From Mycoplasmatota bacterium (GTDB lineage: Bacteria > Bacillota_I > Bacilli_A > Izemoplasmatales > Hujiaoplasmataceae), in NCBI GenBank assembly GCA_027859085.1, contig JAQIBJ010000077.1:1-64000 (forward strand): 64,000 nucleotides of DNA. The letters are read 5' to 3'. Each line of letters begins with the position of its first letter. The first letter of the stretch is position 1. The position numbers and the translations under genes are program-made. Below are positions 6,861 through 9,189 of the stretch, one piece after another. The notes beneath the pieces were generated by a model, which saw nothing but the letters and a program-made list of their open reading frames with translations, made no database searches and was not told the origin of the DNA.

Positions 6861-6932
6861 ATTACACCTCGCAAAATTCTTATCATATCTATTGTAACAC
6901 ACTTCAAAAATTCTTCAATATTAAAGAAAAAA

Positions 6933-6948
6933 CCATAGTAGACTATGG
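6933..6948 (-). terminator. Terminator downstream of the DUF454 gene
   Basis: CCATAGT-ct-ACTATGG followed by TTTTTT on the minus strand. Confidence 0.65.
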
Positions 6949-6949
6949 C

Positions 6950-7306
6950 TTAGACTATTTTAACATATCTGTAGAAATAATAGTGTTTAAATACAAACAA
7001 TATGACAATCAATATTTTCAATAGTAGAAAATCAACCATTAAAAATGAAATGAATAAAATGATATCAACAAAGATCATTAGTTGCCATTTGTTTTTTCTT
7101 TTCATTGTTCTTGTTTTAACAAAGTCTTCAAGATACTTTTTGTAGATTTTTGTATTAATAAACCAATTGTAAAACCTATCAGAAGATTTAGAATAAAAAT
7201 ATGTGGTTAATAGTAAAAATGGTACTGTTGGAAGAATTGGCAATATAATTCCCATTGTTCCTAACCCAAGCGAGAGACTTCCTAGTAGCAAGTAAATTAT
7301 TTTCAT
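6950..7306 (-). CDS. DUF454 (YbaN-like) small membrane protein
   Basis: LGSLSLGLGTMGIILPILPTVPFLLLTTYFYSKSS. Confidence 0.85.
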   Translation of the reverse strand: MKIIYLLLGSLSLGLGTMGIILPILPTVPFLLLTTYFYSKSSDRFYNWFINTKIYKKYLEDFVKTRTMKRKNKWQLMIFVDIILFISFLMVDFLLLKILIVILFVFKHYYFYRYVKIV

Positions 7307-8511
7307 TCTTTACTGATAAGCCTCTTTTCGCCTTCTAATGCTCTGATTGGTTTTATATTTTGAGTAATTTCTAATGTGCCTAAATAATTATTATCTTTAT
7401 CTCTAACTGCAAAATAGCGAATATAAATAAACATTTCTTTTAATTGAATATAAAAATCTTCGTGATCTTTTGTTCCAATTTTAAAACTTTCTACAATCTC
7501 TTCAACAATATGAACGGATTTAGGTGGATGACATAAAGACACATGTCGACCAATGATGGTTGTTGGACGATTAAATATTCTTTCTTTTCCTTGGGTAAAA
7601 TATTTAACATGTCCATCTTTATCAACAAAAGTCATGTCTAATGGTAAAGTATTTAAAATTGAATTTAATTCAATCTGAGACAAAGACCCTGCATCAAATT
7701 TCATTTCACCATTAAGAACTTCATCATCCTCAACTTGTTTATCATCTTCTTTAACTGCCCATGTTTCTTTTGATGCTTCTAAGAAATATCCGATTTCATC
7801 ACTGCCTTTATCAGCTAATATCCAATCATAAAAAGACATAATTTCAGATAATTTTGGTAGTAAAATGTTTTCTTCCTTCATTACCATATCTTTAACTCTT
7901 TCAAGAACGGCCAATGTCTTCTCTTCTATCTCTTTATAATCAGAAGTTTTATCATCTAGCAATTTTTTCAATGCCTTTAAATCATGTCTGATTTCATCAT
8001 CAACGCCCCACATGACTTTTGGAATTGAAGTGATACCTTTTTTCTCTAAACCAGGAAAAAATAAATATTCTTTTCTAGCATAGTGATTTGAGATTTCCAT
8101 TAATCTTTCAATACCAATCCTCAACATTAAAAACGAGTTAGGATCTCTTTTTGTAATATATGGCACAATCTCAGTTTCTATTAAAGCTAAAATATTCTTA
8201 TTTTCATCAGAAAATACTTTCGCAGGATGTCCTGGGATATCCATCATTGTTTTTGATTTATGGATGTCTGAAATTGACCCATCAAACAAAGCCGCGTGTA
8301 CATCGCACAGACTTTGAACTTCATCCATACTCATGCCTTCGTCCATTAACCCTTGTTCTAACTTCACAATTTCATCGGTTGAGATTTCTTGAAAATCTTT
8401 TTTAAATAATGCTTTTGCTTCATCTAAAGGCATACCGCTATGTATTTTCTTGATTAAAACTTTTAATTTTTTTTGTCTTTCTTGTGTATTGTTATTTATA
8501 AATTCACTCAT
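7303..8511 (-). CDS. DUF438/hemerythrin-like plus PAS domain protein (paralog 2)
   Basis: HYARKEYLFFPGLEKKG, PKVMWGVDDEIRHDL, CHPPKSVHIVEEI; ATG 8511 has GAGGG upstream. Confidence 0.85.
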   Translation of the reverse strand: MSEFINNNTQERQKKLKVLIKKIHSGMPLDEAKALFKKDFQEISTDEIVKLEQGLMDEGMSMDEVQSLCDVHAALFDGSISDIHKSKTMMDIPGHPAKVFSDENKNILALIETEIVPYITKRDPNSFLMLRIGIERLMEISNHYARKEYLFFPGLEKKGITSIPKVMWGVDDEIRHDLKALKKLLDDKTSDYKEIEEKTLAVLERVKDMVMKEENILLPKLSEIMSFYDWILADKGSDEIGYFLEASKETWAVKEDDKQVEDDEVLNGEMKFDAGSLSQIELNSILNTLPLDMTFVDKDGHVKYFTQGKERIFNRPTTIIGRHVSLCHPPKSVHIVEEIVESFKIGTKDHEDFYIQLKEMFIYIRYFAVRDKDNNYLGTLEITQNIKPIRALEGEKRLISKE

Positions 8512-8532
8512 GTTATCCCTCATTTCAAGTCA

Positions 8533-8538
8533 ATTATA
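8533..8538 (-). promoter_or_regulatory. -10 box TATAAT for the 7303-8511 gene
   Basis: Perfect TATAAT on minus strand, 22 nt upstream of ATG; no recognisable -35 hexamer. Confidence 0.55.
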
Positions 8539-8553
8539 ACTAATTTGCAAAAA

Positions 8554-8581
8554 AAATTATGTGATTCAAATCACATAATTT
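8554..8581. promoter_or_regulatory. CRP-like operator TGTGA-N6-TCACA within a 13-bp perfect inverted repeat; also a plausible terminator of the Crp/Fnr gene
   Basis: AAATTATGTGATT-ca-AATCACATAATTT; overlaps the Crp/Fnr stop codon, followed by an 8-T run on the minus strand; centre at about -41.5 of TATAAT 8533-8538. Confidence 0.65.
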
Positions 8582-9189
8582 AGTATATAAGTATTTTTTT
8601 CTACTTTAATAATATTTTCTTTTTGTAAAGCACTCAGATGTCTCGATAGCGTTTCTCTTCTAATATTAATGATATTGGCCAAAACTGTTTTAGAAAAAGG
8701 CAATTTAATAATATATTTTTTGTTTTCTATATGACCAAATTCATAAGATAAATTTTTTAGTATCATAATTATTTTTTCTTTAACATCTACTTCAGCTGAT
8801 AGTTGCAATTGTGTATGAAATAAATTTGATCTTGTGACTGCACATTTTAAACAATTTTCTTTAAAAGCCGTGTTTGAACTATATGCATTCAAAACGTCCT
8901 TTTTATCCATCATCCTTAATTTGACTTTTGACAAACAACTGGCACTGGCAATATATTGACTTTTTTCTTGTAGTAATGCCAAAAGAGCGATATAATCACC
9001 TGGGCCTAATACGCCAATGATAAATTCATCTCCACTTTCTAAAAACTTACTCACTTTAACATATCCTTCTTGAATAGAATATATGGTTTTCAATGGTTCA
9101 CCTTCTAAAAATATAATGGATCTATCTTCGTATTCGATAAATTCGCTTTTAATGGTTCCGTATATACAATTTTTACATTTTTTTTCCAT
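8566..9189 (-). CDS. Crp/Fnr-family transcriptional regulator
   Basis: cNMP-binding fold plus HTH FSKTVLANIINIRRETLSRHLSALQKENII; N-terminal CKNC and internal CLKC. Confidence 0.9.
   Translation of the reverse strand: MEKKCKNCIYGTIKSEFIEYEDRSIIFLEGEPLKTIYSIQEGYVKVSKFLESGDEFIIGVLGPGDYIALLALLQEKSQYIASASCLSKVKLRMMDKKDVLNAYSSNTAFKENCLKCAVTRSNLFHTQLQLSAEVDVKEKIIMILKNLSYEFGHIENKKYIIKLPFSKTVLANIINIRRETLSRHLSALQKENIIKVEKNTYILNYVI

Follow-up and report, generated by a model that had tools for sequence, protein, structure and literature searches.

A palindrome at the 3' end of a CRP/FNR-family regulator gene of Izemoplasmatales: a probable class II activator operator combined with an intrinsic terminator

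A 28-bp palindrome separates a CRP/FNR-family regulator gene from a DUF438 gene in the window, a 64,000-nucleotide stretch of DNA from an uncultured Mycoplasmatota bacterium of the order Izemoplasmatales. Judged from sequence comparison, this palindrome is very probably a class II activator operator that is fused to an intrinsic terminator. The regulator, probably a dimer, would respond to nitrosative or redox stress via four conserved cysteines and bind TGTGA-N6-TCACA at -41.5 of a promoter with a -10 but no -35 element, recruiting RNA polymerase for transcription of the DUF438-DUF454 operon. In the regulator transcript the same bases would fold into a terminator and the message would end at the T tract, so that the target operon would not be switched on by read-through. 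The stop codon would lie inside the palindrome because the whole junction is packed into ~60 bp. The features concerned are the following.

8566 to 9189, minus strand: CRP/FNR-family regulator, 207 aa (Pfam PF00027, PF13545; 16-ortholog alignment; CRP/NtcA-like fold)
8554 to 8581, minus strand: perfect 13-bp inverted repeat, putative terminator-stem hairpin of the regulator transcript (sequence re-computed)
8560 to 8575, no strand: predicted operator TGTGATT-CA-AATCACA of the CRP/HcpR1 type (TGTGA-N6-TCACA), centred near -41.5 of the DUF438 promoter
8566 to 8568, minus strand: TGA stop codon of the regulator gene, mid-operator (sequence)
8549 to 8556, minus strand: tract of 8 T, overlapping the stem by 3 (sequence)
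8533 to 8538, minus strand: -10 element TATAAT without -35 element (sequence)
8526, minus strand: predicted transcription start (+1), from geometry alone with TATAAT taken as -12 to -7
8517 to 8521, minus strand: Shine-Dalgarno-like GAGGG of the DUF438 gene (sequence)
7303 to 8511, minus strand: target gene, DUF438 + hemerythrin + PAS_10 protein, 402 aa (Pfam PF04282, PF01814, PF13596)
6950 to 7306, minus strand: DUF454 membrane protein, overlapping the DUF438 gene (Pfam PF04304)
6930 to 6951, minus strand: terminator-like hairpin closing the DUF438-DUF454 operon (consensus terminator scan)

The arms of the repeat, AAATTATGTGATT (8554-8566) and AATCACATAATTT (8569-8581), are exact reverse complements flanking CA, and on the minus strand the repeat reads AAATTATGTGATT-TG-AATCACATAATTT, followed by the T tract. 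The operator TGTGATTCAAATCACA (8560-8575) lies inside it, and the regulator gene ends as TAT GTG ATT TGA. Re-reading and re-computation thus reproduced the perfect inverted repeat with TGTGA-N6-TCACA across the TGA of the regulator, as described in the original prediction. The 8 Ts said to follow the repeat do form a tract of that length, of which the first 3 belong to the repeat arm and 5 lie beyond it. A 56-nt RNA of the palindrome folds at -10.7 kcal/mol (z = -4.3), and 1 of 200 shuffles was equally good. The operator centre (8567.5) is 29.5 nt from the first T of TATAAT, which places it at -41.5 if this hexamer is the -10 element; this spacing, and the absence of a -35 box, were likewise confirmed, the best -35 hexamer at the window promoter matching 2/6 with none acceptable. 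The DUF438 gene most likely starts at the ATG at 8511 (MSEFIN..., conserved) rather than at 8523, and the order DUF438-DUF454 is repeated in two other loci (L087 and L081).

The 1.71-Mb draft genome contains the bare motif TGTGA-N6-TCACA five times without mismatch, and the motif by itself is therefore weak evidence. The extended form TGTGATTNNAATCACA gave 1 genome match and 0 in the reversed control, and the -41.5-plus-TANNNT pattern without mismatch occurs once, at the window junction. One-mismatch scans with TGTGA-N6-TCACA and with the -41.5 pattern returned counts about equal to the reversed-pattern control, too noisy for extending the regulon.

Seventeen orthologs of the regulator were collected by protein homology alone, without the motif: 11 from the window's family (the window's own counted) and 6 from family f2 of Izemoplasmatales. 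Among the relatives, strain zrk2, whose genome is complete (CP076020), shows the architecture of the window with an 82% identical regulator. All 17, at 34-100% identity, have an exact TGTGA-N6-TCACA between the regulator and the next gene, at most 39 nt from the regulator stop codon. Among 26 Izemoplasmatales sites, TANNNT was found exactly 29.5 nt from the operator centre in 19, the next best offset reaching 4. Three further loci (L057, L058, L065) show a near-miss -10 (AATAAT or GATACT) at 29.5 nt, and the offset is 30.5 in L011, L012 and L015 and 28.5 in L060. None of the 26 sites has a good -35 element (maximum 4/6, mostly 1-3). An operator centred at -41.5 over the -35 region is the class II activator arrangement of CRP and FNR, and the junctions appear to conform to it, with the centre near -41.5 and no good -35. 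Site and regulator also occur together, both in the family (10/11 vs 0/23 genomes; Fisher p = 8e-8) and in the order (16/18 vs 3/72 genomes; Fisher p = 6e-13). Two motif copies (L083, L084) fall within protein-coding sequence in genomes that lack the regulator and were regarded as chance occurrences.

The same position would also suit a repressor, as a regulator sitting over the -35 region could keep the DUF438 promoter shut and be released by NO or O2, and the Fe-S protein HcpR2 of D. desulfuricans has been modelled as a repressor (PMC5701242). Such a role is improbable here: the promoter has no -35 hexamer on which regulator-independent transcription could rely, and the -10 spacing is base-exact in most sites, a class II signature, while repressors tolerate varied positions. 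Positive control, as in the activator reading, would fit this geometry better.

The regulator belongs to the CRP/FNR superfamily, having both the beta-roll and the Crp-type helix-turn-helix domain with scores above cut-off (PF00027, 60.8 bits; PF13545, 41.2 bits), and Foldseek matched it with GlxR, CRP and NtcA at E values down to 7.6e-17. In an alignment of 16 orthologs, which excludes L065, R178, E179 and R183 of the recognition helix RRETLSR are invariant (variants being KRETLSR in one ortholog and RRETFSR in two), so the RE-x3-R helix noticed earlier is kept throughout. Together with the TGTGA half-sites at every junction this helix points to a CRP-type specificity. The cysteines of C5xxC8 and C113xxC116 are invariant as well; the AlphaFold model (mean pLDDT 80) is poor at the cysteine-bearing N-terminus, residues 1-6 being below 50. 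A second CRP/FNR gene of the window genome (L024; G000:C7:14090-14605) was considered as binder of the operator and rejected, since its recognition helix, ARPSLSR, should read another site. No match to PF00211 (class III cyclase, the one class searched) was found in the draft genome G000, which makes cAMP unlikely as ligand.

An order-wide scan revealed what may be a small regulon. The other non-coding copies of the operator precede RIC/ScdA genes (4: L033, L040, L041, L078; TIGR03652, above cut-off), hcp (4: L061, L079, L080, L091; TIGR01703) and one NifU-like gene (PF01106), nearly all at -41.5. All 3 RIC genes found in the window's family carry the operator, and in L061 hcp takes the place of DUF438 beside its regulator. 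Relatives thus show, as predicted sites, the hallmark of an HcpR regulon, hcp and nitrosative-stress genes joined by a common palindrome. The regulon would then be HcpR-like and of the NO type, with NO as the probable signal and activation as the probable polarity. The draft genome of the window (87% complete) shows a single target, and a search for hcp and RIC in it gave no match for either. Direct class II activation of the DUF438 gene from the 3' end of the regulator gene, as originally proposed, gains support from the conserved operator and spacing, from the co-occurrence and from this recurrence at NO-defence genes.

None of six DUF438 genes located away from the regulator has the exact site in the stretch examined. 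In L098-L102 such genes follow another conserved frame (...TVGRxMxLxxG...) and apparently form a separate DUF438 lineage without the operator. In G193 (G193:C23:27860-40922; L093-L097) hcp is apparently broken, with stop codons and two parts ~11.5 kb apart; this genome retains the regulator and DUF438. A small cupin-domain gene is located directly 3' of RIC in two loci (L033:407-736, L041:408-728).

Whether the palindrome is also a terminator was evaluated by holding the 16-bp operator fixed, shuffling its flanks and comparing the folding. All 9 co-directional f2 sites without another terminator fold above their shuffles (p 0.001-0.016), each with 7-8 T in 8 after the stem. The window (p = 0.028) and the sister genome L006 (p = 0.045) do so too, both with 8 T. 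None of L007-L010 and L012-L015 reaches 0.05, and L011 (p = 0.036) has no T tract. Swapping the 3' flank between loci destroys the f2 stems (p = 5e-5); in the remaining f1 loci the swap has no significant effect (p = 0.12). The outer stem has 6 pairs in which both partners have changed, against 5 operator pairs without any variation; this count excludes L059 and L081, which have a one-base bulge, and is inflated by related sequences and row selection. Stem and U tract thus seem to be under selection as an intrinsic terminator in the window, its sister genome and family f2, and there the terminator function originally proposed would stand; it does not extend to L007-L015. In two hcp loci (L079/L080, of G057 and G420) an operator-terminator follows an unrelated MerR + GGDEF gene, so such a fusion is not confined to the regulator gene.

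These data bear on two simpler readings. One holds that the palindrome is a CRP-type site only, its long arms and T tract being a coincidence of A+T-rich DNA devoid of terminator function. L007-L015, which keep operator and spacing without long arms and T tract, agree with it, as does the weakness of the window stem; with 2 G-C pairs in an A+T-rich stem, termination may be weak, and the consensus terminator scan, which needs 3, missed it. Yet the f2 arms differ in sequence and still covary, always with a T tract, and the extended stem is missing in two settings: no significant extended stem was detected in L033, L040, L078 and L082, where the upstream gene is divergent, and none is present in L041 and L091, where the co-directional upstream gene has a terminator of its own (in L091 by eye). 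A mere coincidence is accordingly held to be unlikely, and the same absences indicate that the operator does not need the stem. The converse, a terminator whose likeness to a CRP site is accidental, finds some basis in a perfect repeat with Ts directly past a stop codon, but it is scarcely credible: orthologs lose the stem and never the half-sites, the operator pairs are fixed while the outer pairs vary, and RIC genes are preceded by the same site without a terminator role, their sites showing no significant extended stem after flank shuffling. Relatives that kept the hairpin and lost the half-sites would have spoken against the original prediction; the opposite was found, invariant half-sites within a varying outer stem, and the junctions keep operator and spacing. 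The fused operator and terminator is the reading retained below.

The position of the stop codon is more flexible. In L005-L010 the regulator stop lies at the operator centre, and in 6/7 f2 junctions, in a different register, the TGA within TGTGA serves as the stop. In L011-L015 and L059 it is 3-39 nt upstream of the operator. The overlap first described for the window is present in 12 of 18 junctions, and the stop is shifted by 3-39 nt in the others; overlap appears to be common but dispensable. From the operator centre to the ATG there are 52-65 nt throughout, and this compact spacing explains the overlap.

Genera without the operator-terminator seem to insulate the target gene by another device. 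In L009-L015 the Shine-Dalgarno GGAGG can pair with a CCTCC that lies upstream of the -10, giving a hairpin with the -10 in the loop and the Shine-Dalgarno in the 3' arm; this inverted repeat is significant in 7/7 loci (p = 0.002, the lowest value the test allows). Predicted unpaired fractions of the Shine-Dalgarno are 0-18% in read-through RNA vs 44-94% in promoter-started RNA, so the hairpin is predicted to silence read-through RNA only. The window itself has no such hairpin. Insulation is not universal, since both a good terminator and a Shine-Dalgarno trap are missing from L007 and L008. A tree of the regulators, weak in its deep forks, places the Shine-Dalgarno type in two groups within f1, and all f2 rows are of the operator-terminator type. 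A similar layout is known from the late-promoter hairpins of phage T4 (I-TevI, e, soc), which have the -10 in the loop and the Shine-Dalgarno in the 3' arm (PMC2988022); as predicted for L009-L015, only promoter-started RNA is free for translation, whereas the promoters of L009-L015 are on a bacterial chromosome under a CRP-type operator.

The closest known systems are the HcpR/HcpR1 regulons of Desulfovibrio and other anaerobes, NO-responsive and of the CRP/FNR family. The Desulfovibrio HcpR operator is wTGTGAnnnnnnTCACAw, with R180/E181 tied to G3/A6 (Rodionov et al., PMC1274295), HcpR1 binds TGTGA-N6-TCACA, and Ddes_1165, a YtfE-like PAS-plus-hemerythrin gene, is induced by NO (PMC5701242). 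The window regulator shares the predicted operator and the R180/E181-type helix, and the predicted Izemoplasmatales regulon shares the hcp and hemerythrin-like targets, a likeness of site, helix and targets as distinct from tree-based orthology. An FNR-type cysteine motif is reportedly absent from HcpR proteins, and HcpR1 is a heme-binding protein, while CxxC...CxxC is invariant in the window family; the main linked target here is DUF438, and the operator is fused with an upstream terminator. Class II promoters of E. coli CRP have the same half-sites, -41.5 centre, weak or absent -35 and RE-x3-R helix, whereas the window regulator has N-terminal cysteines and is a dedicated local regulator. 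FNR and Gram-positive Flp combine N-terminal cysteines with a cysteine motif just before the dimer helix, as here, but the four cysteines of the window family are arranged 2+2 (CxxC/CxxC), a non-canonical spacing for FNR, and the conserved half-site at the junctions is TGTGA, not TTGAT, so that no FNR site (TTGAT-N4-ATCAA) was recognized there. A literature search for an operator fused with a terminator yielded no precedent; it was a weak search, with most subscription journals outside its reach.

A further possibility, rated as doubtful, is that the palindrome is a two-way switch, in which the bound activator would start the target operon and also obstruct polymerase over the final codons of the regulator gene, and ribosomes at the in-stem stop codon would weaken termination. 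If so, regulator level, leak and activation would all be governed by one 28-bp element, and the lineage-specific exchange of the terminator for a Shine-Dalgarno trap would point to strong selection on NO-defence genes for control without leak.

For a little-studied order the results predict a regulator, its operator and its regulon (DUF438, RIC, hcp, NifU-like), and they would connect a functionally uncharacterized domain, DUF438, with NO/Fe-S defence. The palindrome may also serve as a clear case from nature in which constraints from protein binding, RNA folding and coding act on one element and are separable by comparison: the half-sites are fixed, the outer stem covaries, and other genera would insulate by a different device.
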